In this document: positions 3,628 to 58,339 of the stretch, in pieces
How positions within the stretch are numbered: the first letter of the stretch is position 1
Layout of the letters: every line of letters starts with the position of its first letter
Assembly (NCBI GenBank): GCA_963576725.1
Contig: OY755243.1
Coordinates: 41,463,243 to 41,527,242, forward strand
Direction: 5' to 3'
DNA from: Azorinus chamasolen
Lineage: Eukaryota > Mollusca > Bivalvia > Cardiida > Solecurtidae
Length of the DNA: 64,000 nucleotides
Made by a program: the position numbers and the translations under genes
The notes under the pieces: generated by a model
The model's input: the letters and a program-made list of their open reading frames with translations, nothing else
The model's database searches: none
Told to the model about the DNA's origin: nothing

Positions 3628-3876
3628 ATGAATGCTGGTTTAGTGTTTTGCTTGTTGGCTCTGGCTGCCGGGGTCTCGGCCCAGTACATGCCGTATCCAT
3701 ACATGACTGGAATGAACGGTATCGCTGGGATGCAACTACAATTTGACCAGTTCGGAGGTGTTATGGACTACGATGCTGGACCAGGAGGAGCCCGAGGACT
3801 CCCGATTTGGGGCGGGGCTTGTGCTAACTGTCCTAGCGGGATCCGGCCCGATGGACGTGGGCTGTACCCGATGTAG
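3628..3876 (+). CDS. Gene 1: small secreted Gly/Met/Pro-rich protein, 82 aa
   Basis: Function unknown; probably a small secreted matrix-type protein. I chose the ATG at 3628 because a 3' splice site (T-rich tract ending TGTAG at 3621-3625) lies two bases upstream, the same layout as the three other genes here, and because it starts a clean signal peptide. Residues 1-18 form a hydrophobic signal sequence, with cleavage expected after VSA before QY. The mature 64 residues are rich in Gly, Met, Tyr and Pro. The stretch GGARGLPIWGG aligns with GGRRGMPYMGG of gene 2 (7 of 11 identical); the downstream half of the shared module is missing. It has a CxxC pair (CANC), while the other three mature proteins have no cysteine. 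The upstream 5' exon is not identified. The stop is TAG at 3874-3876. No AATAAA was seen nearby. It could be a truncated paralogue rather than a functional gene. Confidence 0.68.
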   Translation: MNAGLVFCLLALAAGVSAQYMPYPYMTGMNGIAGMQLQFDQFGGVMDYDAGPGGARGLPIWGGACANCPSGIRPDGRGLYPM

Positions 3877-4272
3877 AAATCTACTGTTACAATAACGCGA
3901 TCTTAAGTGCTGGTTATGTGAGTTTGGACAGGCTAAAACAAAAGTTAAAATGGTATAAAATGCATCATTAAGTTTTGTGGACAGATATTTTTGCAGCCCA
4001 CCTCTGTGCAATAGATGCATTACTTGATATATTTCGTAATAAGATGATAACCATCTGTCAAATAACGATACTCACGTGAAACAACAATGACTGTGGGTTA
4101 TAAGACGAATTATTTACCAAGCAGTAAGATTTCATAGTCAGTTGTTGCTTTTTGTTTGTTAAGAAATGCTCTTCGGAATTCGTATTTATATATTTATACC
4201 AATGTTATTATATTGTTGATATCTGTATGGATTTTGAATGATGTCACTAGAAAACTATTATCCTGTATGGTA

Positions 4273-4518
4273 TTAACCCTTTCTCTCATATCACAACTTT
4301 TCAGGCATTAGCAAACAGAGGGGAGTCAGATTAGACGGCTCCTAGAGGAGCCGTCTGATCATGGTCTGCTCTGTTCGCTAATGGAATTTGATATATTTGT
4401 TTCTTAAATTTCTAAAATGGCTACAATGTTCCACCTTCCACATTTTATTATAGCTATTTTGTCCATGAATATCCAGTAGATATTGAAAATTGGACTAAAT
4501 ATAGAACAAGGGAGAGTT
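4273..4518. mobile_element. MITE family E variant
   Basis: TTAA left end followed by CCCTTTCTCTCATA. The core at 4307-4379 pairs CAAACAGAG...GACGGCTCC with GGAGCCGTC...CTCTGTTCG around apex GGCTCCTAGAGGAGCC. The right half matches the copy at 53665-53915 (GCTACAATGTTCCACCTTCC), which defines a subfamily. The right end is decayed. It lies about 400 bp downstream of gene 1. Confidence 0.72.
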
Positions 4519-4878
4519 ATGCTATTGAAATAGTTAAAACAGTGGGACAGTTGTGTAATGTGTCAAAGACAACTCGTGTGACAGTGACAACATATTTAAT
4601 GAAGAAATCTTTAAAGATAAAATAGGCAACTAGCTGAGAAATGGTTTATAATGAGGCAATCTACATGATGCCTATATTTATTTAATACACTAGTTATATG
4701 TAGTATTTAATGTATATGTATGTATTAACCCTTTACTGCTTACAGAAGCATTTTGGTACCTAGAGAAATAGACTAGATGCAGGATCTGCTCTGTTTACTT
4801 ATGACATAACATATGTCTATTTCTACAGATAGTGCCTTGGTAAAATTCCCCTGTTCACGATACCATTATGAACATTTG

Positions 4879-5022
4879 GGTCCATGCTTATAAAGCTTTT
4901 TATTTGAGTCTGAGCTCGTTCTCAAGCTTTTGATTGGTCAGTTTGAGCTTAAGGCTCAAATCTGACCAATCAAAAACTTGAGAACGAACTCAGACTCAAC
5001 TAAAACGTTTTATAATCATGGC
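4879..5022. mobile_element. MITE family D, copy 2
   Basis: Hairpin with GGGTCCATGCTTATAAAGCT at the left and a slightly mutated complement (TATAATCATGG) at the right, apex GAGCTTAAGGCTC. The surroundings hold E-type right-arm sequence (GACATAAATAGTCATGGAGT, then GGGTTAA near 5076). Confidence 0.75.
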
Positions 5023-5307
5023 TACAGATTTATTCAAAGTCATTATTTCTGACATAAATAGTCATGGAGTTAAGGGTTAATATATGAATGCCCCTGACTA
5101 TATACATTTTGTAATGAAAATATTTTAGAAAACTATTCGGGTGAGATTTACTTGAAAAACAAAAACAAAGCAAAACATCGGTGTGTTCAGTTTGATTTGG
5201 GTGTAAAACTGAAGTAGAAGTATGTCCGCTATTCTTTCAACACACGAAACGAAACCTGCCATTGTTATATAAAACGATTAAGGTACCCTTTCAACCCTGA
5301 ATTATCA

Positions 5308-5617
5308 GAGTGGGATAGTCAATCAATGTTTAACTATAGAGTGGAATAGCCCATCAATGTCTAACTATAGTGTGGAATAGCCCATCAATGTCTAACTATA
5401 GTGTGGGATAGCCCATCAATGTTTAACTATAGTGTGGGATAGCCCATCAATGTTTAACTATAGTGTGGGATAGCCCATCAATGTTTAACTATAGAGTGGA
5501 ATAGCCCATCAATGTCTAACTATAGAGTGGAATAGCCCATCAATGTCTAACTATAGAGTGGAATAGCCCATCAATGTCTAACTATAGAGTGGAATAGCCC
5601 ATCAATGTTTAACTATA
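5308..5617. repeat. 31-bp minisatellite, 10 units
   Basis: Ten head-to-tail units of 31 bp containing GGAATAGCCCATCAATGT and CTAACTATA. Units differ mostly at GAGTGGAA versus GTGTGGGA and TCTAA versus TTTAA. Variant units are clustered, which suggests recent local duplication. No protein is implied. Confidence 0.9.
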
Positions 5618-8385
5618 GTGTCCACTCAGTATGAAAGGCTTCAACTTGCTAGAATATTTTGAATGACAGTGCAGACACTGATAAATTAGTGTTTATTGTG
5701 ACACAAAGGGGTAAGAGGTTTGCTCCGTTATCATTTTAAGAACAAATATTGTACTTGATAATAACTGAAGGTGATCTAAAGCAAAAGCAATATTTAAGAA
5801 TTTTGTAACAGACTTAAGAATTTTATCAAATTCATGTTGGGTTTAATTACCTGTTCCTTGCAAAAACCAGAATTTTCTATTCTAAAATATAACAGAATAT
5901 CTCTAAGGTTTCTGTTAAGATAAAATTATTTGACACGTCTTCTCTAAATATAAGTGTAATACCCCTAAGAAGTTAAGCCTGGTATTAAGTAATTACTTAA
6001 GAATGTTCGTGAAACGGGGACCTGAACCCTTGGCTTTGGGTATACACTGTTTGCATATGATAGAGTATGTGCAACCGGGGTTAATACATATAAACTATTT
6101 ATTATATTATAGATGTGATCATGTGAATCTCACTTGTTTTGTGTGCGTATAATGTTAAGGAAACGTGTCAATTTAAATTCAAAAACTAGTTTGGGACAAT
6201 GAATAAATTAACATTGTTTCCCTTAAAAACAGGTGGCTGCTTAATGCGACGCGACAGTTAAGCAGAACGCTTATATGGGTTCGTCTTACATTAAGGTGCC
6301 ACTTGTTTTATAGATCGAGAATTACAACTGTATCCGTGTGGTCGTTGTAGAGAGGTTTTATTGTGTGCAATGAGAGAATGTGCCTTTGGAATTTTATAGT
6401 CTAAATAGTTCCAGATACGATGCATAAATTAAAACATTTTCACAAATAACTTCTTTTTTTCTCCACCAACGCCTATATGTTGTGACCACGCGTTGGAATC
6501 GTCTCTATCTATCTATTGGTACTGCTTCAAACCCTAGCGGGTAATTTTGAGCAGCTGCATTTTTAGCAGCTCTTTGAGACGATTCTAAAGAGTGGTTACA
6601 ACATAGACTTTGGTGGAGAAATAACGAGTTCAGTACTTGAGTACGCACGTTTATCTGTTACTTCGGAACTCTCATGCAGACACCAAAGCCAGCCACTAAG
6701 TTAGAGGACACGGATTTAGACAATGATCTACACTATCTATAAGATGGGGCTAATAAAGCACTATATTAGCTGATGGATACTCTAATAAGACGCACAATCT
6801 CTGATGTTAAGAAACGTTTCTCTATTAACCCATTGCTCTCACCATCCTATAACGAGACATAGACAAATCTTGTATACCCAGATCAGAAGAAATCAATCTG
6901 ATCAGGGCATGCACTGTTTGCTAAATTAATCGATATCAGCGGTTTACACCAGCATATATTTGGTTCGCTCTGTCCCTCAACGTATTATGCGATGGGTTAC
7001 AATGTCATTTTGGGCGAGTTTATTGTAAAGAATACGGGAGTAAATGGGTTAAGTATATACTACACAGAGAGGGATAACTGAACTTAGAATTAAGTATTTT
7101 AAAAGTTTTTATGGATGTATGACTGATACAGTACGCCCCCTTTAACCCTTTTAATAAAGAAGAAATTAGGCATTTTAGGCAGGTTGCTGCTAAATGCATG
7201 ATGAAAGTCGTGCAGCAAACTCCTTTGGAAGCTTTCTGTATTACTTTCACCCTGCAATAAACTGCCACCTGTCTTAAGGATCGTAAATAATATTCATTTA
7301 AACGTCCAGTTTAACCATTTCCTCCTTTTCTCTAGTTAATGCTCCTTTTCGGTAGGTTTATTCAAAGTGGTTGGATCTGAAAATAGCCTATGAGGGAATG
7401 GGAGGTTTTAATGTATACTATGTTGACAAAAATGCATTCATATGTTAGGACAATGTGGCGGTGACTGTATAAAAGAGATATATTTATAAACATATAATAG
7501 CTTTTAAATAAAATCTTAAAGAAATACCGTTTCGTGAAATTTGTATATTAACCATCAGTCTGCTGAGTAAATGTTTGGCAGTAGAAAATTTTGTCCCCAT
7601 CATTTTTTGTTTTTAGATATCTTGCATATCTTTCCGAAACATTACTGAGTGCCAAACACCTGGGATCATGATGAGCCATCGAGTAACTCGGTTTCTCGCC
7701 AAGGTCCAAACCGTGTTCAAGATAATCATTCATTTACCCACAACAGGTTAGTGTGACCCGCTGTTTAGTTATTTTCAAAGAAGAATCATTGCATTGTTTG
7801 GCAATGCTCCGTTGCTATAAAGCTTAACCCTTTGAAAAAACAGTCTGTTAAACCCTGACCTGGTACACATTTGACATACATTCGATTTGTTCAAGCTTTT
7901 AAGAACCTATTGTGTCTCATCTGAGTCTAGACTGTTTGCAAATGTCAGCCAGTTCACGGTTAGAATGAGAAGGGCCAAAGAAACGAATTTCGTGCTCAAG
8001 ACTTTTGAGTTTTCATAGCACATCATAACATACACTACAACACTACTGTTTCTATTGACGAATCTTGAAGTGTACTACGTACAAATCTTGTTCTAAAGTC
8101 AGTGCAAGTAATTAATTTGTTAAAGTTGATATCTAAACTAAGTATTGAACACAATTTTCATTGAACGTTTCATTACCTCATGGCCTGATCAAGGTCTGCT
8201 GTTTGCTCTTGAAATAATATAGATACGATTCTACAGTTTCTGTCATTTTCCTTTGTTCATGTGCCATTAGAAAAAATAAATTAATCAATAGTTACATGTA
8301 TGATGTCATTATATCTTGCATGAATATTCATGAAGTAAAGGGTTAAATCTCATCTTTCATAGAACAGTTTCGTGATGCAATGTAA
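5618..8385. other. Gene-less stretch with MITE debris
   Basis: No supported gene. Recognisable pieces: a family C remnant at 6226-6365 (CAGGTGGCTGCTTAATGCGA...), an E-like core near 6880-6945, a C hairpin at about 7168-7276 (GGCAGGTTGCTGC...GCCACCTGTCTT), and the right half of family A at 7321-7410 (TCTCTAGTTAATGCTCCTTT). The stretches 5618-6225 and 7411-8385 show nothing I recognise apart from a few E-type arm fragments near 8190-8345. Confidence 0.5.
6459..6626. mobile_element. MITE family I, copy 2
   Basis: Terminal inverted repeats of about 45 bp (TTTCTCCACCAACGCCTATA at the left; TTTGGTGGAGAAATAA at the right), with GACCAC...GAATCGTCTC matched by GAGACGATTC. About 60 bp of unrelated sequence, including a smaller AGCAGCT hairpin, sits in the loop, so this copy is longer than the one at 1395-1496. 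Confidence 0.6.
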
Positions 8386-14883: not shown

Positions 14884-17800
14884 TTAATCCAAATATCGTT
14901 TAGGACGATGTCGTTGTCTGTGCGACCGTCGTAATGCAGGCGGAGTTGGCTCAACGGCTGGGTTTCGGACTGCCTGCTGACATTGTTCGTACGACGGTAC
15001 AAATTTAAAGTGAGATGCGTCACGTGTTATCGTGCGATCCTTGTGTTTAGCAGTTATCATTGACCCTTTCCGATATAGCACTTTCCCGGGCATTGGATGA
15101 AAGGGAGTATCCAGTTTATTGTGTTGTTTTTGTTTCACGAGCACACTGTCTCCAGGTTTCAGAATGCACTGCTTAGTTTTTCGACGATTGTCTGCATATT
15201 GTTTGTTCTTTGCTTTTGCTCTACTATCTCTCATTCTGATGTACGTATCCTTTTTGTTTACTCTGAACTGTGGTAGTTTAGTTTTGATTTTTCGGTTAAA
15301 CAAAATTTCTGCAGGAGACATGCCGGTGCTTGGATGTGGAGTATTTCTGTAATTTAGAAGGAACTTTGAAAGTTCTGTTTTGTAGTTGTGTCGTTGCGCG
15401 TTGGCGGTTTTGATAGCTTTTGATAATGGTTTCATGAAAGCTTCTACTGTTCCATTAGCCATAGGGTGCAATGGCGTAATTTTTCGATGCCTGAATCCGA
15501 ATCTAAGTGCAAAATCAGCAAACATGTGGCTGTTGAATGGAGCGCCATTATCGCTCTTGATGATGTCGGGAATTCCGAAAATCGAAAGTACAGATTCTAG
15601 CCTCTGGATAACATTGTCCGCGGTGATGTTTGTCAATCTTTCAATCACTGGGAATCGGCTGTAGTCATCGATTACGACCATGAAATAGTCTCCAGACGGA
15701 AAAGGACCACAAAAGTCTACTGACAACTCAGCCCATGGTTTCTGTGGTAACGGAGTAGATTTGATCGTATCTGGAGTTGAAGTTGGAGATACTGACATAC
15801 ATGGAATACAGCTTTTGCAGATTTCATCTACGAGTCTGTCTATGTAGGGAAACCAGCAACTTTCGCGCAGTAAATATTTACACCTAACTCTTCCCTGATG
15901 ACCTTCGTGTGCTAGGTCAACGACCTGACGATGCAGCGATTCTGGAATGCATAGGCGCGTGCCGCGTAATAGCACCTGACTGCCCTCCATGTAAACTACT
16001 GTTAATTCACCTGAGACTTGGTAATAACAGCGATAACTGTCGCATTTGTTCCGAAGCTGTTTGCACCATGCATTTTCTTGCACAGCGGATATGACGGATT
16101 GCATAATGTTGTCTTTTTGTGCAGCTTTGATTACGTCAAAAATTGTAAGGGCGTTTGGCACTGACGCATTAGCGATAAATTTGACATATTCTTCGGCGAT
16201 AGTTCCGATCTGGCATTTGTTAACTGGGTGCCTTGAGCAATAATCTGAGATCATGATATTTCCTGGACGGTATTTGACCATGTAATTGTAGGTCGTTAAG
16301 TTGAGCCTCCATCGTTCAAGACGTGCTGACTGAATTTGTTTCGTGTTATTGAAAATTGACTCCAATGGCTTGTGGTCAGATATGATGATAAACGGCTTAC
16401 CGAACAGGTACAGGTGGAAATGCTGACATCCCCACACACAGGCTAAAGCTTCACGCTCGGTTTGGCTGTATCTTTGCTCAACTGGTGAAAGCGATCGGCT
16501 ACCGTATGACACGATTTTGTTTTCTTGAACTAGAATTGCAGAAATTCCAACAGGACTTGCATCAACCCATATTTCTGATTGCTTTTTCGGGTCAAAGTAC
16601 GCCATGACTGTGTCACTGATCAGGGCGTTTTTCAGCTGACTGAATGCCTTTTCTTGTTCGTCCGTCCATTCAAATAGTGTATTGTGGTGTGTGAGACGCC
16701 TCAGTGGTTCTGAGATTGTTGAGTAGTTGTCAATGAAGCGAGACACATAATTTGTCATACCCAGAAAACTCCTGACCTCGGCTTGATTTTTCGGGTTCTC
16801 CATGTTTTTAATGCATTTGACCTTTTCTGGATCGGGGGAAATTCCTGACTCTGAAAACACGTACCCATAGAATTTAATTTTAGTCTTTCCAAATTCACAC
16901 TTCCTTTGGTTCAAAGTTAGATTTCTTTCACTCAGTCTCGAGAGAAGAGCTTTTAGGTTTGTGTCATGCTCTTTGCGAGTTGTCCCATGCACAATAATAT
17001 CGTCACTGATATTGAGTGTTTTGCTCAGTCCTTGAAGTGCCTGGCGGATTTCATTTTGAAATATTTCCGGTGCGACACTTACACCGAAATTGAGCCTTTT
17101 ATAACGGCGGAGTCCGACGTGCGTTGCAAAGACTGTCATGTTTCGCGATTCCTCCGAAAGTTCAAGCTGATGAAAACCGTTGTTCAGATCGACTTTTGAG
17201 AATACTGTAGAGCCGTTTAACTCTAGTATGATGTCATCTATTGTTGGGGTGACGTGTCGTTCTCGTTTTAAGGCTTGGTTTGCTTTTCTCATGTCAACGC
17301 AAAGTCTGATTTCATTCGGAGCTTTTGGTTTTGGTGCAACGACTAGGTTCGAAACCCATGGCGTAGGACCCTCGACTTTCTCTATAACATCAAGCTCCTC
17401 CAAGCGGTCGAGTTCGAGCTCTAATTTTTCGCGAATGTGAAATGGAATGCGCCTTGGTGGTTGTGTTGTCGGAACTACGGATTCATCAATATGAAATTTT
17501 ATTTGCCTGCCCTTGAGTTTCCCTAGACCAGTGAAAACCGTTTTGTACTGATCGCACAAAGTCGCGTAGTTGTCTTCACTTGTTACCGACTTGATGACTG
17601 GTACGATCCCGAGCTCTACGGCTGTCTGGTAACTGATGATATTTTCCGGCGATCCCTGGATGATGTGGAAATCTGTTGTCGTGATTTTGGTTTCTGACTC
17701 AACTTCGCACAAATATTTGCCTTTTATGGTCAATGGTTTGTTTTGGCCAAACGCATATGCCTTTGTATCTGTTCGCCGTAATTGTGGTGTTTGCTTCATT

Positions 17801-18345
17801 TTTCTGACCACTGCTTCGTCTATCACATTTAAGCTACTTCCGGTGTCAACAAGAAAGCTAGCACAGATCCCGTTTACTTTCAAGTCAACCTTTGGCACTT
17901 TACTGTTTAAGACTTTCTTTACGGCTTTAATTCCAAATGTCACATTTGGCTCTTGATTGTTTCCATTTTCACTGTCTCTGTAATCTTCTACTATTTCCCG
18001 TAAATGCTTTCTTGGATTTGTCCCTAACCTTTTGCGACATACAGCTATGAAGTGATTTCGTTTGTGACAATAACTGCAACTAGCACCAATTGCGGGACAG
18101 CGTTTTTCGTGAGGATATTCACCTCCACAGTTTCTACATTTTTGCTTTGGTTTAGTAGAATGGACAGTTTTGCTGAAGTGTCCATATTTCTGTGTAGGCT
18201 GATTTGGTTTGTGTCCGATTTTGTTAACTGGTATTTCTTTGTCAAAGCTTTTGTCCATTGCTTTTGCTTGTTTTGATGCTATCTCCATAGTCCGTGCCAT
18301 TGTTAACAAATCAGTCAGTGACTTATCTTCTTCCAAACACTTCAT
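14884..18345 (-). CDS. Gypsy Gag(partial)-Pol polyprotein, 1153 aa from first ATG
   Basis: Retrotransposon polyprotein. Domains in order (residues from the ATG at 18345): end of gag with two zinc knuckles, C70-C73-H79-C83 and C90-C93-H98-C103; aspartic protease DTG at 167-169; reverse transcriptase about 300-470 with VDLNNGFHQ (D386) and catalytic ISDD at 446-449; RNase H with D595, E632 and D657 (SDHKP); integrase with H813/H816 and C846/C849 zinc residues and catalytic D877, D932 and E968 (exactly 35 residues between the last two). The tail ends in an RSHRQRHRPKRY-like basic stretch. ISDD in place of YxDD is, as I recall, common in K02A2.6-like elements, so it does not by itself mean loss of activity. 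The frame stays open upstream of this ATG to the LTR junction near 18411, so the ATG is internal and the N-terminal part of gag is missing. No stop or frameshift occurs in the 1153 codons. Confidence 0.95.
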   Translation of the reverse strand: MKCLEEDKSLTDLLTMARTMEIASKQAKAMDKSFDKEIPVNKIGHKPNQPTQKYGHFSKTVHSTKPKQKCRNCGGEYPHEKRCPAIGASCSYCHKRNHFIAVCRKRLGTNPRKHLREIVEDYRDSENGNNQEPNVTFGIKAVKKVLNSKVPKVDLKVNGICASFLVDTGSSLNVIDEAVVRKMKQTPQLRRTDTKAYAFGQNKPLTIKGKYLCEVESETKITTTDFHIIQGSPENIISYQTAVELGIVPVIKSVTSEDNYATLCDQYKTVFTGLGKLKGRQIKFHIDESVVPTTQPPRRIPFHIREKLELELDRLEELDVIEKVEGPTPWVSNLVVAPKPKAPNEIRLCVDMRKANQALKRERHVTPTIDDIILELNGSTVFSKVDLNNGFHQLELSEESRNMTVFATHVGLRRYKRLNFGVSVAPEIFQNEIRQALQGLSKTLNISDDIIVHGTTRKEHDTNLKALLSRLSERNLTLNQRKCEFGKTKIKFYGYVFSESGISPDPEKVKCIKNMENPKNQAEVRSFLGMTNYVSRFIDNYSTISEPLRRLTHHNTLFEWTDEQEKAFSQLKNALISDTVMAYFDPKKQSEIWVDASPVGISAILVQENKIVSYGSRSLSPVEQRYSQTEREALACVWGCQHFHLYLFGKPFIIISDHKPLESIFNNTKQIQSARLERWRLNLTTYNYMVKYRPGNIMISDYCSRHPVNKCQIGTIAEEYVKFIANASVPNALTIFDVIKAAQKDNIMQSVISAVQENAWCKQLRNKCDSYRCYYQVSGELTVVYMEGSQVLLRGTRLCIPESLHRQVVDLAHEGHQGRVRCKYLLRESCWFPYIDRLVDEICKSCIPCMSVSPTSTPDTIKSTPLPQKPWAELSVDFCGPFPSGDYFMVVIDDYSRFPVIERLTNITADNVIQRLESVLSIFGIPDIIKSDNGAPFNSHMFADFALRFGFRHRKITPLHPMANGTVEAFMKPLSKAIKTANAQRHNYKTELSKFLLNYRNTPHPSTGMSPAEILFNRKIKTKLPQFRVNKKDTYIRMRDSRAKAKNKQYADNRRKTKQCILKPGDSVLVKQKQHNKLDTPFHPMPGKVLYRKGSMITAKHKDRTITRDASHFKFVPSYEQCQQAVRNPAVEPTPPALRRSHRQRHRPKRYLD

Positions 18346-18416
18346 TCTTAATTTCTTAGAAATGCAGCCTTGAATGAATTGACTTTTGATTTCTCCTTCT
18401 TTGTCGGCAAATTCGC

Positions 18417-18648
18417 TGTTTGTATTGTTACATGTGTTGAGTATCAGACCCTTAAAGGGATGGTATTTATAACAGACCCTAATGGGATAAGTTTACTACG
18501 TTTATTTACTCTCGCATACTACTAGCAACTAACATGTACACGCATACCGCATTCTACCGACATACATGATAGGGCTGGAACCCTTCACTGTATCGTGATA
18601 CGCTGGACCCTGTTATGGGCGGATCCTATTTACTCACTGACCACTACA
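18417..18648 (-). repeat. 5' LTR of the Gypsy element (inner end clipped)
   Basis: Matches the other LTR over 232 bp with no difference that I can see. The inner five bases (18412-18416) no longer match the CATTACA-type end and are already continuous with gag-like coding sequence. This marks a deletion junction rather than a normal LTR/leader border. Confidence 0.88.
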
Positions 18649-32549: not shown

Positions 32550-32785
32550 AGTAACGCCTTGCAAACAGAGTACACCCAGATCAGATGGTTACGGTAGGTG
32601 TCATCTGATCAGGATCTGTTCTGTTTGCTTATAAGGGATAATATAGGCCTGACTCTATAGTTTCTGCCGTGGCAAAAAAGTTCCTTTGTTACATGACATT
32701 TTAAGAAATCTAATTAATACCCATGATGTCATTATATTTGTTTTACATGCATGTACATATTCATGGAGTAAATGTATAAAAGCTT
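32550..32785. mobile_element. Family E MITE, worn
   Basis: The core at 32562-32631 pairs TTGCAAACAGAGTACACCCA with GATCTGTTCTGTTTGC. The right arm is ACCCATGATGTCATTATATT ... CATATTCATGGAGTAAA. The terminal TTAA is not conserved. It ends about 180 bp before the splice acceptor of gene 2. Confidence 0.6.
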
Positions 32786-32973
32786 CATTAAGTAACCAAC
32801 TTATATATGAGAAGATACCAACTGATGGTAAAACAGTTCATATGATAATGACTGTCAGATACATGTAGTATAGACACTGTCATATAGGCACAATAGCTGG
32901 CCTCTGACTTTACTGCTGTAATATTCGGTGGCGTCTTTGCTCACGAAGCTGTTCGTTTCTTTTGCAGGTCAAT

Positions 32974-35097
32974 ATGGTGTCTCTGATTGTCCTCGCTACA
33001 ATCGCCGTCATGGCTACTTGTGCAATGGGACAGCAGGACATGAGTATGAGAAGAACGGGTAGGAGAAGAACAGGTCAAGATGGTTTTCAAATGGACAGAA
33101 GTACAATGAGACAGACAGACATGGGTCGGAGAAGACCGGATCAAGAGGGTTACCAAATGGAAAGAAGTGCAATGGGGGCGCGAGACATGGTTATGAGAAG
33201 AATGGGCCAAGAGGGTTACCAAATGGACAGAAGTGTAATGGGGCCGCGAGGCATGGGTATGAGAAGAATGAGTCAGGAGGGTTACCAAGTGGACAGAAGT
33301 GCAATGGGGCCGCGAGACATGAGTATGAGAAGTACGGGTCAACAGGGTTACCAAATGGACAGAGGTGCGATGGGACCGCGAGACATGGGTATGAGAAGGA
33401 CGGGTCAACAGGGTTACCAAATGGACAGAAGAGGTATGTCCGGTGATCCGTCCTTAATAGGCCCAAGAGAACGTGATAGGAGACTAAGAGCACCAGACCC
33501 ATTTGGTCCTCAGGGTCCATTTATGCCCGAAAGACCGCAGAGAAGAGGTAGGGGTGGTATAAGCGGTCGTTTCGACAGAGATCGGTTGTTCTCTGGTATG
33601 GATCGTAGATCTTCACGAAGGCGAAGCCCAAGACGGAGGAGTCGTAGAGGTAGAATTGGTGGCAGAAGAACATTCAATAGTCCACGAAGGAGTGGATTTC
33701 GTTTTGGGCGTATAAGTGACGGACAAGAAGGATATTTTGGAGGTGCCGGTGGTCGACGGGGAATGCCTTACATGGGAGGCGTAGGTCCTACGAACGCCTT
33801 CTCTAACGGTGGGCTAAGTTTAGGTTTGCAAGATGGCATAGGTGTCGGGTCCTTAAGTGCATATGTTGAACGACGAAGGACGGGCAGGGAGAACACACTT
33901 CCTCTTGATTATCTAAGAAGAATAGAGAGTACAGGTGCAGTAGATAGTTTAGGCGTAATGAGTGGTACTGAAGGCTTGATACCAGTAGAACCGGCTGGTA
34001 TGGAAGGAATTGGCGACATAAGAAGTACTGGCATGGACATCAGTGGATCGGGGCGCATAGATACCATAAGTCAGTTGAAAAGAGGAAATGGAACACTGGA
34101 TGCAAGGGAAAGTCGTACTGGAAGTGCTGGAGACACTGCTGGTATGGGGTCTAGCGAACGTGTTCTTAGTCCTATACCGGCCACTGAAAGTATAAGTGGT
34201 GTAGCAGGTGAGCTTATGCCTAGTCCTATACCAGCCATTGAAAGTATAAGTGGCGTGGTAGATGAGCGCATGCGTAGTCCTATGCCAGCCATTGAAAGCA
34301 TGGGTGGCGTGGCAGGTGAGCGTATGCCTAGTCCTATACCAGCCATTGAAAGTATGAGTGGCATGACAGGTGAGCGTATGCCTAGTCCTATACCAGCCAT
34401 TGAAAGTATGAGTGGCATGCCAGGTGAGCGTATGCCTAGTCCTATACCAGCCATTGAAAGTATGAGTGGCGTGGGAGGTGAGCGTATGCCCAATCCTATA
34501 CCAGCCATTGAAAGTATGAGTGGCATGACTAATGGACGTATGCGTGGACCTGTACCAGGTATTGATAGGAGAGGTATCAGAGACGGACGTAGGCGTGAAC
34601 CTGGATCAGGTATTGACAGAATGAGGGGCATGGTGGACGAGCGTAGGCGAGGACCTGTACAAGGCATTGAACGTATGAGAGGCATGAGAGATGAGCGTAG
34701 GCGTGGACCTGTACAAGGCATTGACAGCATGAGGGGCATGAGAGATGAACGTAGGCGTGGACCTGTAGGAGGCATTGACAGCATGAGAGGCATGAGAGAA
34801 GAACGTAGGCGTGGACCTGTAGGAGGCATTGACAGCATGAGAGGCATGAGAGATGAACGTAGGCGTGGACCTGTACAAGGTAATGACAGAATGAGAGGCA
34901 TGAGAGACGAACAATGGCGTGGACCTGTACAAGGCAATGTCAGAACGAGAGGCATGAGAGACGAACGTAGACGTGGACCTATGCAAGGTGCCGATATCAT
35001 AAGCGGCATGGCAGGCATTGGTAATATGGGATTTCCAGGAAATCCTAGAGGTGCTGTAGATACAAATCTGATCAGTAGAACCATGTCAATGCCTTAA
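32974..35097 (+). CDS. Gene 2: secreted Met/Arg-rich repetitive protein, 707 aa
   Basis: Not a family I can name; most likely an extracellular structural protein. The ATG at 32974 follows a strong 3' splice site (TTCTTTTGCAG, AG at 32966-32967), so a 5'UTR exon lies upstream. Residues 1-19 are a signal peptide (ends CAMG before QQ). Mature layout: six 22-residue repeats (about 29-158; GQ.GYQMDRSAMGPRDM); a very basic R/S/G region (about 190-246); the shared family module (about 247-307: GQEGYFGGAGGRRGMPYMGG ... GSLSAYVERRRTGRE); a spacer; about seven 18-residue SPIPAIESMSGM..ERM repeats (398-520); about eight or nine 18-residue RGPVQGIDSMRGMRDERR repeats (521-673); and a Gly-rich tail. The mature protein has no cysteine, and many dibasic sites could allow proteolysis. 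AATAAA at 35419 is a likely poly(A) signal. Secretion and matrix role are inference. Confidence 0.85.
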   Translation: MVSLIVLATIAVMATCAMGQQDMSMRRTGRRRTGQDGFQMDRSTMRQTDMGRRRPDQEGYQMERSAMGARDMVMRRMGQEGYQMDRSVMGPRGMGMRRMSQEGYQVDRSAMGPRDMSMRSTGQQGYQMDRGAMGPRDMGMRRTGQQGYQMDRRGMSGDPSLIGPRERDRRLRAPDPFGPQGPFMPERPQRRGRGGISGRFDRDRLFSGMDRRSSRRRSPRRRSRRGRIGGRRTFNSPRRSGFRFGRISDGQEGYFGGAGGRRGMPYMGGVGPTNAFSNGGLSLGLQDGIGVGSLSAYVERRRTGRENTLPLDYLRRIESTGAVDSLGVMSGTEGLIPVEPAGMEGIGDIRSTGMDISGSGRIDTISQLKRGNGTLDARESRTGSAGDTAGMGSSERVLSPIPATESISGVAGELMPSPIPAIESISGVVDERMRSPMPAIESMGGVAGERMPSPIPAIESMSGMTGERMPSPIPAIESMSGMPGERMPSPIPAIESMSGVGGERMPNPIPAIESMSGMTNGRMRGPVPGIDRRGIRDGRRREPGSGIDRMRGMVDERRRGPVQGIERMRGMRDERRRGPVQGIDSMRGMRDERRRGPVGGIDSMRGMREERRRGPVGGIDSMRGMRDERRRGPVQGNDRMRGMRDEQWRGPVQGNVRTRGMRDERRRGPMQGADIISGMAGIGNMGFPGNPRGAVDTNLISRTMSMP

Positions 35098-40006: not shown

Positions 40007-40321
40007 AGATGAATAGAGCAGACCCTTATCAGACGGATCCTGTGGATCTACCATGTTTGCTAATGCGTCAAAAAGTTGCTCTGTCAAATAAACTGTTGAG
40101 ACGCACCAAGAACCGCCTGTTCATGGTCTACTCTGTTTGTTTATAAAACTATATAGATCTAAGTGTACTGTTGTTTCCGTGGCCAAACGTTCCCGAGTTC
40201 AGACGCCAGTATAAACACATGAGCTAATTGATATTTATCAGACTAAGAAGTAAATGATTCTGCTACTACTACAGCAAATTATTTTGTCATCAAAACCTCT
40301 GTAATTTCTTTTGAGGCTGTG

Positions 40322-40890
40322 TGAACTTCCTGTTGTTAAGTAGTGACGGTGTGGACGTCCCATTGTTTAGTAGTGACGGTGTGGACGTCCCATTGTTAAG
40401 TAGTGACGGTGTTGACTTCCCATTGTTAAGTAGTGACGGTGTGGACGTTCCATTGTTAAGTAGTGACGGTGTGGACGTCCCATTGTTAAGTAGTGACGAT
40501 GTGGACGTCCCATTGTTAAGTAGTGACGGTGTGGACTTCCCATTGTTAAGTAGTGACGGTGTGGACGTCCCATTGTTAAGTAGTGACGATGTGGACGTCC
40601 CATTGTTAAGTAGTGACGGTGTGGACTTCCAATTGTTAAGTAGTGACGGTGTGGACTTCCCATTGTTAAGTAGTGACGGTGTTGACTTCCCATTGTTAAG
40701 TAGTGACGATGCGAGCTTCCCATTGTTAAGTAGTGACGGTGTAGATTTCCCATTGTTAAGTAGGGACCGGGTGGGCTTCCCATTGTTAAGTAGGGACGGT
40801 GTGGACTTCCAATTGTTAAGTAGTGACGATGCGGGCTTCCCATTGTTAAGTAGGGGCGGTGATGACTTTCCCTTGTTAAGTAGGGGCTTA
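40322..40890. repeat. 30-bp minisatellite, 19 units
   Basis: Nineteen units of 30 bp (TTAAGTAGTGACGGTGTGGA plus CGTCCCATTG). Because 30 is divisible by three, both strands stay open (10-residue repeats LLSSDGVDVP on +). There is no ATG at the frame start (it begins GTG), no signal peptide, and unit-to-unit changes fall in all codon positions, so I treat it as non-coding. Confidence 0.88.
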
Positions 40891-41599: not shown

Positions 41600-42250
41600 C
41601 TCGCTTGTGACCACTCACACCACTATCCGTTTAGTGTACCCTATCAATCGTATACCACACACGCCACTATCCGATTACTGTACCCTTTCAGTTTTATGAC
41701 CACGCACGTCAATGTACGTTTAATGTACTCTATCAATATTTTGACCACGTACGCCACTATCCAATTAGTGTGCCATTTCAGCTTTATTACCACACACGCC
41801 AGTATCCGATTAGTGTACCCTTTCAGTTTTATGACCACACACGCCACTGTACGTTTAGTGTACTCTATCAATATGTTGACCGATTGGTGTACCCTATCAG
41901 CTTTATTACCACACACGCCAGTATCCGATTAGTGTACCCTGTAAGCTTTATAACCACTCACACCACTATCCGATTAGTGTGCCATTTCAGCTTTATTACC
42001 ACACACGCCAGTATCCGATTAGTGTACCCTGTAAGCTTTATGACCACTCACACCACTATCCGATTAGTGTGCCATTTCAGCTTTATTACCACACACGCCA
42101 GTATCCGATTAGTGTACCCTGTAAGCTTTATGACCACTCACACCACTATCCGATTAGTGTACCCTTTCAGCTTTATGACGATACACGCCGATTTACGTTT
42201 AGTTTACCCTATCAATATTTTGACCAGTACGCCGCTATCCGATTTCATTG
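41600..42250. repeat. 45-bp minisatellite with 90-bp higher-order units
   Basis: About 14 units of 45 bp (ACCACACACGCCACTATCCG, ATTAGTGTACCCTTTCAGCT, TTATG). From 41930 to 42160 two alternating unit types form 90-bp dimers repeated three times with almost no change, which indicates recent amplification. Open frames across it start with GTG and follow from the unit length. Confidence 0.9.
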
Positions 42251-48620: not shown

Positions 48621-48697
48621 AGTAACAATGAAAACCCCTATCATTAATCTACAGACATCAATAAATGTTAATGTTTATATTTTCATTGCAGACCGAC

Positions 48698-49999
48698 ATG
48701 CAGTTCTTCTTTTTGCTTGGCACTGTTGCCTTTCTGGTCTCAGAAACAAGAGGACAGTCTGGGGGCCTCCCCTACACACCCTTGTCACATGGACAAGGAT
48801 CTCATAGCCGGGAAAGTTTCAGCATGGGGCAGAGCGGGGCAGGGATGTCTGTTCCTTATAACACAGGGGGCAGTTTTAGTATGACTGGGTCTGTGCCTAC
48901 AGCGGGAGGCATGCGTATGACATCATTCAACAGCGGCACAGGGGCTTACTTCAACGGTTTAAATGGAAGAGCAGAGCACCGTGCAGGCCATGCTCACAGA
49001 GGAATGGGTATGTCCACTAGAAGCCATCACACTGGAAGTGGAGGGCATTCCACTGGGGGTAGTAGCAGTGTATCTGGAATAACTGGGACCACGGGAAGTA
49101 GTGCTGTGCCAACAGTCAATGGAGTTAGTGGATATTTAGGGGCGCTAGGTGGTCGAAATGGTTTCCCATACATGGGTGGAGCTGGGGCAAATCGTGAACA
49201 TGCTGATGGGGGCATGAGGCATGGGGTAGCCAATGGTGTAGGATCAGGTTCAATTCAGGCATTTTTAGAGAGAAGAAGAACAGGAAGAGAAGATGTCAGA
49301 CCAGACTTACCCGGAGGCCGCCGAATGTTCAGAATGGGCGGAATACCAGGAATGGGGGGAATGGGTGGAATGCCGGGTATAGGTGGAATGCCTGGATTTG
49401 AAAGTATGTCGGGATTAGGAAGAATGTCAAGGCGTGGTAGCATGGGAAGTATGCCCCGGATGGGAGGACTGCCTGGAATGGGAGGAATGTCAGGAATGGG
49501 AGGAATGTTAGGTATTGGAGGAATGTCAGGTATTGGAGGAATGACAGGAATGCCTGGCATGCCCGGAATGTCGGAAATTGGAGGAATGGCTGGAATGGGA
49601 AGTATGTCGGGAATGGGAGGTATGTCGGGAATGGGAAGAATGTCGACAATGGGTAGTATGTCAGGAATTGGAGGTATGTCGGGAATAGGAGGTATGTCGG
49701 GAATGGGTGGAATGTCGGGAATGGGAGGTATGTCGGGAATGGGAGGTATGTCGGGAATGGGTGGAATGTCGGGAATGGGAGGTATGTCGGGAATGGGAGG
49801 TATGTCGGGAATGGGAGGTATGTCAGGAATGGGAAGTTTGCCGGGAATGGGAAGTATGTCGGGAATGGGAAGTATGTCGGGAATGGGAGGTATGGGTTCC
49901 TTCGATGGACATCGTCAGGGCGGAATTGGCCGCATGAGCTTCAGCCGGAATTCACACAGAGGATCTGGTATGTCATCTGGCGGCCCTTATATGTTATAA
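48698..49999 (+). CDS. Gene 3: secreted Gly/Met-rich protein with GMSGMG repeats, 433 aa
   Basis: Unnamed family; probably a secreted structural protein. A 3' splice site (ATATTTTCATTGCAG, AG at 48690-48691) precedes the ATG at 48698 by six bases; an upstream in-frame ATG at 48665 would lie in the intron. Residues 1-19 are a signal peptide (about ETRG before QS). The mature protein starts with a Ser/Gly-rich part, then a His-containing stretch (about 93-123: RAEHRAGHAHRGMG...), then the shared module (about 141-198: SGYLGALGGRNGFPYMGGAG ... GSGSIQAFLERRRTGRE). From about 212 to 399 it consists almost only of Gly, Met and Ser in a GMSGMG hexapeptide (18-bp DNA repeat). The tail is GGHR/S-rich and ends GGPYML. 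No cysteine. ATTAAA at 50065 may be its poly(A) signal. The repeat number could vary between alleles. Confidence 0.85.
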   Translation: MQFFFLLGTVAFLVSETRGQSGGLPYTPLSHGQGSHSRESFSMGQSGAGMSVPYNTGGSFSMTGSVPTAGGMRMTSFNSGTGAYFNGLNGRAEHRAGHAHRGMGMSTRSHHTGSGGHSTGGSSSVSGITGTTGSSAVPTVNGVSGYLGALGGRNGFPYMGGAGANREHADGGMRHGVANGVGSGSIQAFLERRRTGREDVRPDLPGGRRMFRMGGIPGMGGMGGMPGIGGMPGFESMSGLGRMSRRGSMGSMPRMGGLPGMGGMSGMGGMLGIGGMSGIGGMTGMPGMPGMSEIGGMAGMGSMSGMGGMSGMGRMSTMGSMSGIGGMSGIGGMSGMGGMSGMGGMSGMGGMSGMGGMSGMGGMSGMGGMSGMGGMSGMGSLPGMGSMSGMGSMSGMGGMGSFDGHRQGGIGRMSFSRNSHRGSGMSSGGPYML

Positions 50000-50724: not shown

Positions 50725-50970
50725 TTTGTATCCAGGATCCATGCTTATAAAACTTTTTAGTTCAATCTGAGTTCGTTCTCTAGCTTTTGATTGGTTAGAT
50801 TTGAGTTCTCAAGCTTTTGATTGGTCAGATTTGAATCAAAGGCTCAAATCTGACCAATCAAAAACTTGAGAACGAACTCAGACTCAACTAAAAGTTTTAT
50901 AAGCATGGACCCTGATGAGACCCTGAGTGACTTGGCGTCTCAAAGGGACCAAATTTGTTTGCATTCGCCA
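50725..50970. mobile_element. Family D hairpin inserted in a family F core
   Basis: The F arms CAAACAGTTTGTATCCAG and CTGATGAGACCCTGAGTGAC ... CCAAATTTGTTTGC flank the D hairpin (50737-50911). The D left arm contains an internal duplication (GCTTTTGATTGGTTAGATTT then GCTTTTGATTGGTCAGATTT), also seen at 52539-52699. Confidence 0.78.
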
Positions 50971-51630: not shown

Positions 51631-51857
51631 TGCGTCAAAAGGCAGGCTGATAGAGTAAAGGTGTTTTTTTTATATCAATGGCATGTGGTGATTTAAAATC
51701 GCCTTTTCTTTTATTTATGAGTATTGGTGGAAGGGTTTTCATTTTGCGAATTTACTCTTTTCATTAAATGTATACAGTTTAGCTCGTTGCTGTTTTAATA
51801 GACTCCACAAACAAACCTACAGCACTATTAAACAAACCGTAATGTTACAACTGAAGC

Positions 51858-52131
51858 AGAAGAAGAAGAAGAAGAAGAAGAAGAAGAAGAAGAAGAAGAA
51901 GAAGAAGAAGAAGAAGAAGAAGAAGAAGAAGAAGAAGAAGAAGAAGAAGAAGAAGAAGAAGAAGAAGAAGAATATGATGACGAAGAAGAAGAAGAAGAAG
52001 AAGAAGAAGAAGAAGAAGAAGAAGAAGAAGAAGAAGAAGAAGAAGAAGAAGAAGAAGAAGAAGAAGAAGAAGAAGAAGAAGAAGAAGAAGAAGAAGAAGA
52101 AGAAGAAGAAGAAGAAGAAGAGAAGAAGAAG
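51858..52131. repeat. (GAA)n microsatellite
   Basis: About 270 bp of almost pure GAA/AAG with one TATGATGAC interruption near 51973 and a GAT-rich 3' edge. It is a purine strand that can form triplex DNA. Open frames of poly-Lys or poly-Ser across it follow from the repeat and are not genes. Confidence 0.97.
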
Positions 52132-52507
52132 ATGATTATGATGATGATGATGAATTTACTTGGAGACTCAATCTGTTTGCAAATGCTAGTCAGGCAGCGC
52201 CTAGCGGGATAAAGCTTCAGAGACATTAGACAAATATGTGGTAAGCCAAAAAGCAGTGGTCTGTTTGTAGGTCTCTACGACAGGTGGTTTTGATTTTGCA
52301 TAATTACTTATTAAATTACATTCACGAATCACCTGAGCATGCTTAAACATCGCTGCTATCACAAGAATTTATAGAAATGCTTTAGCATGCTTATGCGTTT
52401 CGTGAGTATAATTTAATGAGTAATTGTTCAACACCAGACTCCGAGGTCTGCTCTTACGACTCCCATATTGATTCAGTCAGTGGTCGACTTTAGAATCAGA
52501 TCTGTAC

Positions 52508-52738
52508 AATTCCGTACGCAAACAGAGCAGACCCTGAGTCCATGCTTATAAGTCTGAGTTCGTTCTCGAGTTTATGATTGGTCAGATTTGAGTTCTCAAG
52601 CTTTTGATTGGTCAGATTTGAGCCAGAGGCTCAAATCTGACCAATCAAAAACTTGAGAACGAACTCAGACTCAACTAAAAGTTTTATAAGCATGGACCCA
52701 GATTAGATTACTCTAATATGGGTCTTCTCTGTGTGCAA
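52508..52738. mobile_element. Family D hairpin inserted in a family E core
   Basis: The E arms GCAAACAGAGCAGACCCTG and CAGATTAGATTACTCTAATA, TGGGTCTTCTCTGTG enclose a D copy (52539-52699). As at 50737, the left D arm carries the duplicated TTGATTGGTCAGATTTGAG. Confidence 0.78.
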
Positions 52739-53915: not shown

Positions 53916-53968
53916 AACAGTTTTAATCCAGATCTAATCAACGTCAAACATTTGTTCGCGAAACGACG

Positions 53969-55028: not shown

Positions 55029-55254
55029 ACCTTTTATCTGATGGAGGTGCCTTTGCAAACATAGTACACTCAGATCAGAACAGAATATGTAATTTTTACA
55101 TAGTCATAATTTTGATATAGTCATACAGATATAATAACTAAACAAGTACCACGTGACTAAGTATTGCTATTAAACATGCAAACCTTAAATAAATGAATAT
55201 GACGTTAAATTGTTATTAGGAGCTGGACTTGCTAAGGTAAGTACATGTATCACA

Positions 55255-56575
55255 ATTCATTGTTATTACTCAAAGAATTACGTAAAATAAATGTTTCATA
55301 CACAAATCTAGATAACCTCTTTATAACAGGGAGTTGTGTGCATTTCATAAATTCAGTAAATTTAAAACACTCGGACGTCTATAGTAATAGGAATTAGTAT
55401 AAAGTTTACGTATTCCTCTATAGACTGGACAGATAAGTAAGAAATGGTATTCATCTTCAATATCTCAACAATGACATAGGGTGCAAAGCCGCATGTTTCC
55501 ATTCTCTATGTTTAAGTATATCTACCAGTAACTATTCTCAAACTATTTACCAAGAGCCCGAATCTTCTAAAATGTATCTAAGCTTTTTAGGTAAGATGTT
55601 TAGATAATTTTCCAATCCAAATGTAAAAAAGTACCTAGTTATAGTCTACTTTCAGTCCGAATGACCGCTCAGCCGACTGTACAATGTCAACTTTTAATTC
55701 TCATATATGTATAACTGAAGAGAGCTGCTGTTTTCTACACCGTTTTTCCATTGTTGGATAAACGCGTCAACAACTATATATTTAAAAACTCTATGAAAGC
55801 GGTTTTTAAAAAGTCAACATCGAATGGGTTATGTCATGCAAATCCACAATCTTCAAGCTAATGTTTGATGTTACTCGCCCAGTTTACAATACCATTTTCA
55901 CAATTATGTACAAGCATTAATAAAATGTTTTTATTAAGATATTTTTAGAGCTCACAATTAACAATTCGGACAAATATTGACACATTAATTTAACCCTTTC
56001 CCTGATATTGACGACTTTTGACGACTCTGTAAAAGTCACTTTGTGAAACCATTGTGATAAATAGAGCATTTGCTCCTATAGTAGCAAATGCTCTATTTAT
56101 CACAATGGTTTCAAACTGCAAACTTCTAAAATTTTCCTTTTCTCTAGTTAATGCTCCTTTTCGGTAGATTTATTCAAAGAGGTTATATCTAAAAATAGCC
56201 TATGAGGTAATGGGTTAAGGGGGTATCTTCCAAGTTCTCCATACATTAGTGGGAGTAGATTTGCGAACTTGTAATAAAGATTTACAAAATTTGAGATGCA
56301 CACGTTCAATTGCTTTGATAATACAACATACCATATTCCACACGAATAGCTGAGAATAGGACCAACAAATGCGTGGATACAGCATAACAATTACTATTAG
56401 ATAAAATAGCATTAAATGTGTTTAAGCTCTTACTTATCAAAACGAACGTACGTGTATACAGTCGAATACAGTGCCAAGATAGTTAAAGACATTCACCCTC
56501 TCTAACTCAATTTTGTTATAAGACCATGCGTCACCTAGCAAAATAAGACTGAACATTATCTACATATTTACCCAT
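55255..56575 (-). pseudogene. LINE reverse transcriptase C-terminal fragment, split by a MITE
   Basis: On the - strand, in decaying frames: RVNVFNYLGTVFD (about 56500-56460), then HAFVGPILSYSCGIWY and AIERVHLKFCKSLLQVRKST, PLMYGELGRYP (56400-56220). After the family A insertion it resumes with QEWKNGVENSSSLQLY (about 55790-55720), IENGNMRLCTLC and DIEDEYHFLLICPVYRGIR (about 55500-55410), then YYYRRPS-like (about 55360). These are the order and wording of the C-terminal region of RTE/CR1-like LINEs, widespread in molluscs. Many stops and frame changes show that it is dead. No RT YxDD motif is visible upstream. Confidence 0.75.
55989..56218. mobile_element. MITE family A inserted in a LINE
   Basis: TTAA at both edges, apex with one mismatch (GCTCCTATAGTAGC). 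It separates two pieces of the same LINE-derived coding sequence. Confidence 0.88.
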
Positions 56576-57571
56576 CCCTAAGAAGGAGAAGCTGAAGAAA
56601 AGAATAGATAATATATATTCAGTCTGTCTTATAAACAAGGGGTATAGTCTGCTATATTACTACTATAATGGTAGGATTTTGAAGCATGAACACCCCATAT
56701 TAGTTATTGTTCCTGCTTCCAAACTCAGCATTGAAAATAACTGTAGAATACATATTGAAGGTAGTTCGTGCTTATTTAATAATAGGCCACACTGTACTAA
56801 ATATTAACTAACATTTCTGCTAGGAAAGACTAGCTAAATAATTCAGAATATTAATGAAAAAGTAGTAAAGTCAAGCAGGAAAAGACACACACAAAACGCA
56901 ACCAACACCAAAACACCAACAGAAGCAAGCAACACATCCACATAACCACATACACACATGCGCGCGCACGCACAAACACATGAGATGAAAACATGAAATA
57001 CAAACAAAAGCACAAACACAAAAATCTGACTGTAGGAGATCCTTCGAAAGCAAAAGCAGCAATGCAAAAAGAGAAAATCTCTCACCACTTTGTCAGAAAA
57101 TGACATGATTCTAAAAATATCAACAATGTGATAATATGGACCTATAATATCTATAGATTTGATAAAATATTCATCTAATAGTTGACCACCTGCATAAGAT
57201 TTGCCTCTTTTTAATTTGCGTACTGCTGTCTCTTACTTCAGCTAACAGTAATAATTCTGTCCAGCGAATCAAAGTTGAAATCAATATTTTCAAAATCGTT
57301 GCCCCTGCAAAACTGTTCCGATTACATTTGTATTTCATTAAATGTACCGTAGTCTACTGCTCATGAGAGATACATGTATTATCATTCGTATGCTTATTAC
57401 TATTCCTAAAAACTAATTTCCAAAACTGGTTGTATCTCCAATATCTTTTTACGTTCATATGCCCTATTTTTCTTTCTGACAATACTTTTATATTTTGTTT
57501 TACATTCACACATATTAATCCTATTTTCGTTACTTTTAAAAGAGTTAAAATAATGCAAAGCGTTCTTGTAA
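56576..57571. other. Gene-less stretch upstream of gene 4
   Basis: A CA-rich tract at about 56880-57020 (ACACACA, GCGCGCACGCAC). Otherwise unremarkable AT-rich DNA. A 5' exon of gene 4 may lie here but cannot be recognised. Confidence 0.4.
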
Positions 57572-57699
57572 ACACGTTTTGTCGCAGTACACTCGGTATA
57601 TAAACCCGTTTTGTCGCAGTACACTCGGTATATAAACACGTTTTGTCGCAGTACACTCGGTATATAAACACGTTTTGTCGCAGTACACTCGGTATATAC
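57572..57699. repeat. 32-bp tandem repeat carrying TATATAA, 4 units
   Basis: Four units of 32 bp: ACACGTTTTGTCGCAGTACA then CTCGGTATATAA. Three units have TATATAA, the last TATATAC. The array ends 53 bp before the gene 4 splice acceptor and 55 bp before its ATG, so it may hold promoter elements or lie in the 5' intron. Confidence 0.85.
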
Positions 57700-57754
57700 A
57701 AAGACATGCTTATCTGTTTTAGTTTTGACATTGTTCCTTTGTTTTGTTTCAGCT

Positions 57755-58339
57755 ATGAAGTCCTATCTCCTTCTGTTGGTTTTGGGAAATCCCATTTACA
57801 ATATTGCCGTAGCACAAGTGTCCAGAGCCCATGGGCAATCAGCCATATCCTCACACAGAGGGTTCACAGGTGGGGGTCGCATTAATTTAGGCACAACGGA
57901 AGACGGTCAGGAGGGTTATCTCGCAGCCAGGGGAGGACAAGGGCCCTTCCCGTTCTATGGCGGCGCCGGGCATGGAACCCGGTACTCTGATGGAGGGGTA
58001 TCTATGGGGGTTGGGAATGGTTTTGGATCAGGTTCCATAGTTGCGTATTATGACAGACTTCGAAGTGGGAGGAGTGATTGGGGGGCACATATTCCACCTG
58101 AGCCCAGCGGTCGTGGAGCAAGCATGCAAACCGGAAGTGGCAATGGATTATTCCGAAGTGAGAGCAGACCCATGATATTCCGCGGATTCGGAACTGGGAC
58201 GGGATTTTCAGGCCCTAGAATTACATCTGAACGTGTTGGAGGATTTCAAAGACATTCCTTTGGACCTGGATTTATTAGACCTAGTATTTCGTTCGGACTA
58301 TTTTCAGGACTTCAGTTTGGATCGCCATTTATGTTTTAA
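57755..58339 (+). CDS. Gene 4: secreted Gly-rich protein with the family module, 194 aa
   Basis: Unnamed; the most compact full member of the family. The 3' splice site (TTTGTTTTGTTTCAG, AG at 57751-57752) is followed two bases later by the ATG at 57755. Residues 1-20 form a signal peptide (AVA before QV). The module spans about 49-108: DGQEGYLAARGGQGPFPFYG ... GSGSIVAYYDRLRSGRSD, so RRRTGRE of genes 2 and 3 is RLRSGRSD here. After it comes a Ser/Gly-rich linker and a tail rich in F and G (GFGTGTGFSG, SFGPGFIRP, SFGLFSG, LQFGSPFMF). It lacks the large repeats of genes 2 and 3. No cysteine in the mature part. The stop TAA is part of a TTAA that begins a family E remnant. No clear AATAAA downstream. 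Role as a matrix protein is inferred. Confidence 0.82.
   Translation: MKSYLLLLVLGNPIYNIAVAQVSRAHGQSAISSHRGFTGGGRINLGTTEDGQEGYLAARGGQGPFPFYGGAGHGTRYSDGGVSMGVGNGFGSGSIVAYYDRLRSGRSDWGAHIPPEPSGRGASMQTGSGNGLFRSESRPMIFRGFGTGTGFSGPRITSERVGGFQRHSFGPGFIRPSISFGLFSGLQFGSPFMF

Follow-up and report, generated by a model that had tools for sequence, protein, structure and literature searches.

Tandem clusters of shell-matrix genes are common in bivalves: in the account of PMC4759782 the shematrin genes and other such genes of Pinctada are clustered, and shematrin, MSI60 and N19 are reported to be absent from the Pacific oyster. In a heterodont, Tridacna crocea, low-complexity proteins rich in Gly and Met or in Gly and Arg are described among 39 identified shell proteins, the majority of them novel (PMC8217771), and Met-rich insoluble proteins are described from both the shell and the ligament of Pinctada (PMC7591529). 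For mechanism, the closest analogue that has been tested is KRMP-3, in which chitin is bound by a Gly/Tyr region and crystal growth is controlled by a Lys-rich region (PMC4498902), and Gly-rich, silk-like secreted proteins are described as being used in many materials (PMC4944945). Here, we consider a cluster of four + strand genes in a stretch of 64,000 nucleotides from another heterodont bivalve, Azorinus chamasolen (assembly GCA_963576725.1, contig OY755243.1, forward-strand positions 41,463,243 to 41,527,242; 37% G+C; 'the window', from whose first base all coordinates below are counted). Three of the genes share a 59-residue module lodged in otherwise unrelated sequence, and on balance we favour, with moderate confidence, the view that the cluster is a lineage-restricted paralogous family of secreted extracellular-matrix proteins.

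Each of the four genes consists of one open coding frame from an ATG. Gene 1 (3628..3876, +) would encode 82 amino acids (aa), rich in Gly, Ala, Met, Pro and Tyr and acidic (isoelectric point, pI, 4.6), and the products of the others are all basic: 707 aa for gene 2 (32974..35097, +; Arg/Gly/Met-rich, pI 11.5), 433 aa for gene 3 (48698..49999, +; Gly/Met/Ser-rich, pI 11.7) and 194 aa for gene 4 (57755..58339, +; Gly-rich, pI 11.0). Met makes up 9.6% of the mature gene 2 protein and 15.5% of that of gene 3; there is 0 or 1 Lys in each of the four proteins, and 0–3 Cys. An earlier note, made from the letters of the DNA, had claimed a same-strand cluster of four genes with signal-peptide-like starts, and coordinates, single frames and hydrophobic cores all bear this out (the best eight-residue Kyte–Doolittle mean at the four starts is 2.44–3.31). 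Such a core, followed at a plausible cutting position by a small residue and then Gln, was found in five of the 246 nested ATG frames of at least 60 aa in the window, and four of the five are genes 1–4; the rule was a rough, custom-made one (not SignalP), and its Gln criterion was added after Gln had been noticed in these four, so the count of four in five partly reflects the design of the rule. Gln stands at the predicted mature N-terminus in all four, so that, if the predicted cuts are right, the mature proteins could carry pyroglutamate.

The module comprises residues 249–307 of gene 2 (33718..33894, +), 141–199 of gene 3 (49118..49294, +) and 50–108 of gene 4 (57902..58078, +), as delimited by profile and shuffle tests. 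It had been proposed as a gapped stretch of about 55–60 residues; it is real, and it aligns over 59 residues without a gap, with identities of 30/59 (genes 2 and 3), 27/59 (genes 2 and 4) and 31/59 (genes 3 and 4). A 67-column alignment of the three proteins contains 21 invariant columns, 14 of them Gly. None of 5000 shuffles per pair reached the pairwise module scores, and with the Gly columns set aside and the remaining ones permuted 20000 times the outcome was again none. Profiles built from any two copies recovered the third from the six-frame translation of the window at expect values (E) of 1e-17, 3e-20 and 1e-16, and the profile score of genes 2–4 was 112–116 bits, as against at most 8.5 bits for 300 shuffles of each. 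The same kind of six-frame profile search revealed no fourth full copy elsewhere in the window.

How old is this likeness? Silent sites in the module are saturated (proportion of synonymous differences, pS, 0.73–0.84), and the proportion of nonsynonymous differences (pN) is 0.35–0.40; because neutral drift would have saturated pN as well, the module has been constrained. The same codon is used at only 9/30, 8/27 and 12/31 of the conserved residues in the three pairs. Saturated silent sites, a lower pN and differing codons together indicate that the likeness was inherited and kept by selection, and that the duplications are old. Thus, genes 2–4, which align with each other beyond what composition explains and so behave as a paralogous family, have a common ancestry through the module, as old duplicates with the module under constraint. 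Recent segmental duplication was considered and found to be unsupported: same-strand blastn comparison of the four loci gave no contact with a coding region among the matches listed (at most 12 per pair), and these matches recur between loci and resemble dispersed repeats.

The position of gene 1 is less clear. The earlier note had credited it with only the short motif GG.RG.P..GG, and a possible first half of the module is indeed detected by the profile at 3757..3828 (+; domain E 0.099 in the six-frame window). Its score of 11.8 bits was reached by two of 5000 shuffles, and by eight of 5000 in which Gly was held fixed, so the profile match beats nearly all shuffles, but the pairwise tests were weaker: of 300 shuffles, 3 did as well as the best local alignment of gene 1 with gene 2, 7 as well as that with gene 3 and 28 as well as that with gene 4, which moreover falls outside the module. 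It is at best probable that gene 1 retains the first half of the module, and it retains half at most.

Outside the module, the proteins go their own ways. Gene 2 has 22-aa (66-bp) repeats in its N-terminal part (33057..33431, +; 5.7 copies) and 18-aa (54-bp) repeats in its C-terminal part (34167..34988, +), the latter returned by the tandem-repeat scan as two overlapping rows of 13.7 copies (34167–34903) and 13.0 copies (34290–34988); gene 3 has C-terminal Gly-Met repeats based on 18 bp, or 6 aa (49442..49894, +); and in gene 4 the scan found no tandem array within the protein. Five of the six comparisons of pre-module and post-module segments among genes 2–4 lay within the shuffled range. The sixth, of the post-module segments of genes 2 and 3, gave a score of 185, above all of 500 shuffles, but a score of 188 was obtained with the sequence reversed; the likeness is therefore one of composition only, and homology of the two tails was rejected. 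The claim that sequence outside the module is unrelated is therefore upheld, nothing there being alignable beyond composition; of the further suggestion that the repeats are exchangeable, which implies swapping, the data bear out no more than flanks that do not align.

Is the module already known under another name? No Pfam family matched any of the four proteins at E up to 1 (the gene 4 query began at residue 21, and that of gene 3 extended 11 residues further upstream). Among sequences in the PDB, searched with gene 4, the best of eight matches at E up to 10 had an E of 0.042 and was taken as chance. A set of 5.8 billion annotated proteins was searched with gene 4 (546 word-sharing candidates, about 107–339 aa long) and with residues 125–215 of gene 3 (616 candidates of 239–757 aa), and gave no match at E up to 10, although the set contains heterodont and other bivalves, as the retroelement described below served to confirm. 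At that database size, gene 4 as the query would score its paralogue gene 3 at an E of 7e-7 and gene 2 at 9e-4, with 1 and 2 five-residue words in common, and gene 3 as the query would score gene 2 at 8e-9 and gene 4 at 7e-8, with 5 words and 1 in common. Because candidates were picked by a few words held in common, a relative no further removed than gene 2 from gene 3 should have come up, and those at a gene 4-like distance could have been missed. Scans for the module pattern gave 65 matches in bacterial and archaeal contigs and 14 in viral ones, none of which was confirmed, as expected for an animal gene, and five exact peptide strings from the window had no match in the texts of open-licence papers. 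The earlier note's failure to recognize the module is thus matched by the libraries searched, and its proposed check for conservation in other species yielded no relative in the protein set or in the prokaryote and viral contigs. As far as these searches and the open-licence literature go, the module is apparently undescribed.

The sequence observation is solid and the biology moderate; the kind of cluster is familiar, and the module apparently new. Most likely, by analogy with the systems described above, the three neighbouring genes, and probably the fourth, encode proteins from which an external structure such as shell is built, the shell being the likeliest site (a guess at the tissue, guided by precedent). 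The earlier reading of the cluster as extracellular matrix stands to the extent that the module is real, constrained, unmatched in the searched libraries and set between unrelated repeats, and that three of the four proteins exceed the Gly cut-off of the SilkSlider rule (PMC4944945; at least 25% Gly in 80 residues, secretion being judged by our own rough rule), with 27.5, 46.2 and 28.7% for genes 2, 3 and 4. In terms of mechanism, each protein would be exported by the epithelium of the mantle (or of another gland). The first 45 residues of the module, near-neutral and with 15–16 Gly and 3–6 aromatic residues, might then be sticky or open to cross-linking and bind to chitin or to other proteins of the matrix, and the last 14 residues, with 3–4 Arg and a net charge of +1 to +2, might provide a basic end making contact with acidic partners or mineral, somewhat as labour is divided in KRMP-3. 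The flanking repeats would set length, charge and stiffness, and could change fast through repeat number. Anchoring or cross-linking would thus be the role of the module, and the mechanical role would fall to the repeats.

Several points weigh against this interpretation. With a net charge of only +1 to +2, the basic end is weak. AlphaFold2, given the three-row module alignment, returned a low-confidence structure (mean predicted local distance difference test score 48.8, predicted template modelling score 0.21), and the module may therefore lack a domain fold. Because the databases searched yielded no relative, the functional reading rests on composition and analogy. Gene 1 has half a module at most and falls short of the Gly rule, counting there as shorter than 80 residues and reaching a 28-residue maximum of 32.1% as against 35%. 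Finally, the splice acceptor-like sites found just before three of the genes (see below) are not rare, since the same rule picks out 6–7% of the window's ATGs (101/1441 on the + strand and 79/1321 on the – strand).

If the family is secreted and structural, it need not be a shell family. The sequence itself names no tissue, and it is possible, though we would put it only tentatively, that the products serve instead in byssus or foot adhesive, hinge ligament, mucus, siphon sheath or egg covering. Byssal adhesives are rich in Lys and Tyr, unlike these four proteins with their single Lys or none. The wide use of Gly-rich silk-like secreted proteins (PMC4944945) and the occurrence of a Met-rich protein in Pinctada ligament as well as shell (PMC7591529) lend themselves to such sites, but the closest heterodont match in composition in the literature consulted is from shell matrix (PMC8217771).

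A second idea, to be held just as tentatively and compatible with a matrix family, concerns a new detail: all three modules end in R-x-R-[TS]-G-R. This might be a proprotein-convertase site, the module then being a processing unit at which each precursor is divided into two parts with different jobs. In all three copies the motif contains RxxR and, two residues ahead of it, another Arg; RxRxxR occurs once each in genes 3 and 4, both times at the module end, and gene 4 has no other RxxR; and after the motif come E or S, then N or D, and then the three sequences diverge. Gene 2, however, has 27 RxxR and nine RxRxxR, so that the motif is not special there, and gene 3 has two other RxxR. Moreover, proprotein convertases do not favour Gly in the position that precedes the final Arg, and clusters of Arg would equally fit simple binding.

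A more elaborate version, which we regard as doubtful, would make the module a new short unit of both assembly and processing, confined to one heterodont clam lineage and cut at R-x-R-[TS]-G-R after secretion, with ends that seeded at least one repeat array and a family built by copying pieces of a founder module. The array in question is the N-terminal one of gene 2, in which five repeats have QEGY or QQGY, resembling the QEGY of the module start. The residues before these are RRPD, RRMG, RRMS, RSTG and RRTG, so RRxx followed by Q(E/Q)GY is present in four of the five, and the exact module-end RRTG in one. The repeats may have been seeded from module ends, although the strings are very short.

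It is improbable that the cluster encodes secreted defence peptides, a Gly/Arg-rich antimicrobial family with variable tails. Immune effectors can be small, basic, Gly-rich, secreted and encoded in duplicated clusters, but two of the proteins here, at 707 and 433 aa, have long Met/Gly or Pro/Ile/Met repeats, Cys is as scarce as noted above, and gene 1 is acidic. Least tenable of all is a chance Gly-rich low-complexity match or a shared DNA repeat, which the Gly-richness of the proteins and composition-bias terms of 9–12 bits in the profile search might have favoured, and of which the chance match had been named by the earlier note among the things that would undo its proposal: for genes 2–4 this reading is rejected by the shuffles and Gly-excluded permutations, by the gap between profile and shuffle scores and by the differing codons at most conserved residues of the module.

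If our preferred reading as a matrix family is right, the module has some practical value. Most fast-changing shell and matrix proteins cannot be compared between species, and a fixed module amid replaced surroundings marks the part that matters, its profile providing a probe for cousins in other clams; at 59 residues it is also small enough for synthesis and for tests of binding to chitin, to mineral or to itself.

Upstream of the genes there are some candidate signals. Gene 2 is preceded (32775..32967, +) by TATAAAA at 32775 and a predicted intron in the 5' untranslated region (UTR), with GT at 32828 and AG at 32966–32967, 6 nt before the ATG (a prediction by eye only, read alongside a TATA scan and an acceptor score). 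The acceptor score also predicts a splice acceptor before gene 3 (48673..48697, +), with AG 6 nt before the ATG. Upstream of gene 4 (57569..57754, +), TATA, repeat and acceptor scans found a tandem repeat with three TATATAA boxes, followed, 2 nt ahead of the ATG, by a predicted acceptor. Thus, an acceptor-like YAG with pyrimidines at 9 or more of 15 positions lies 2 or 6 bases ahead of the ATG in three of the four genes; that of gene 1 is weaker (8/15). Given the frequency with which other ATGs pass this rule, these sites suggest, and no more, a 5' UTR intron common to the genes. The gene 4 repeat (57569–57698) has a 32-bp unit in 4.1 copies with 97% matches, and its boxes lie 94, 126 and 158 bases before the ATG; if it is a promoter, it would be a multiplied core promoter.

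Once low-complexity frames and those within a retroelement had been removed, 142 open frames of at least 60 aa remained in the window, of which 123 were scanned against Pfam (of the other 19, 16 overlap genes 1–4, two belong to repeat arrays at about 41.6 kb and one is an overlapping frame at about 56.9 kb). This gave only five weak matches, to one frame each, with a best E of 0.0016, which look like chance. There was no Rfam match in the window at the gathering threshold.

The retroelement (14887–18492, –) is a long open polyprotein of the Ty3/gypsy type, with Pfam matches to reverse transcriptase, RNase H and integrase and a weak one to protease. Its closest named relatives, among the best 120 of 388 proteins, are from Mya arenaria (62% identity), Mercenaria mercenaria (55%) and Ruditapes philippinarum (54%), Mya and Mercenaria both belonging to Imparidentia. 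These relatives, taken by themselves, make a heterodont bivalve the likeliest origin of the DNA and the earlier note's mention of molluscs very likely right, although retroelements can pass from one species to another and so give no proof. Among the matches listed are also bivalve-type proteins under bacterial names (metagenome-assembled genomes of Sedimenticola sp. and Candidatus Thiodiazotropha endolucinida), suggesting that some bins of symbiont genomes contain DNA of the host. Four elements of about 100–140 bp, 90–94% alike (3317–3455, 4918–5021, 50782–50919 and 52581–52709), look like dispersed foldback elements or miniature inverted-repeat transposable elements; the copy at 3317–3455, upstream of gene 1, is by eye a near-perfect inverted repeat. 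Minisatellites with 30-bp and 45-bp units (40319–40883 and 41608–42244) contain open frames of up to 216 aa on both strands, which are probably not genes, because the unit lengths are multiples of three. At 51853–52132 there are about 94 consecutive GAA trinucleotides.

Compared with described systems, the cluster is a tidy case rather than a surprise, clustered, fast-evolving, Gly-rich secreted families such as shematrin and KRMP being established in bivalves. Like genes 2–4, the shematrins of Pinctada and the shematrin-like proteins of Dreissena are Gly-rich, repetitive and lineage-specific; five shematrin genes are described in tandem in two Pinctada scaffolds (PMC4759782; PMC4897951), and the shematrin-like proteins are described as basic and biased in composition (PMC9210306). 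Going by that description, however, the latter have G(n)Y arrays (PMC9210306), where we find a non-repetitive 59-residue module, with repeats that are Met-Gly, Arg/Met or absent; the arrays in our translations are the 22-aa and 18-aa ones of gene 2 and the 6-aa Gly-Met one of gene 3, with no GY arrays. The KRMPs of Pinctada resemble the module in being secreted and in having a Gly/aromatic part that adjoins a basic part (PMC4498902), and they too are reported to have undergone independent expansions (PMC4897951). Their basic part is Lys-rich, whereas here, with so little Lys, it is Arg that supplies the charge, and in KRMP-3, a protein described as 101 aa long, the basic region comes first (PMC4498902), whereas here the Gly/aromatic part precedes the Arg-bearing end; a Lys-rich region followed by a Gly/Tyr region is found in none of our four proteins. 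NU-5, a Met-rich shell protein, is like genes 2 and 3 in being a Met-rich matrix protein and, by its description, differs in having Asp-rich regions (PMC7591529), genes 2–4 being basic. Likened by composition only, Tcr_714321, Tcr_597367 and Tcr_618259 of Tridacna crocea are in the same class as the proteins of this cluster, and are described from the shell matrix of a heterodont (PMC8217771).

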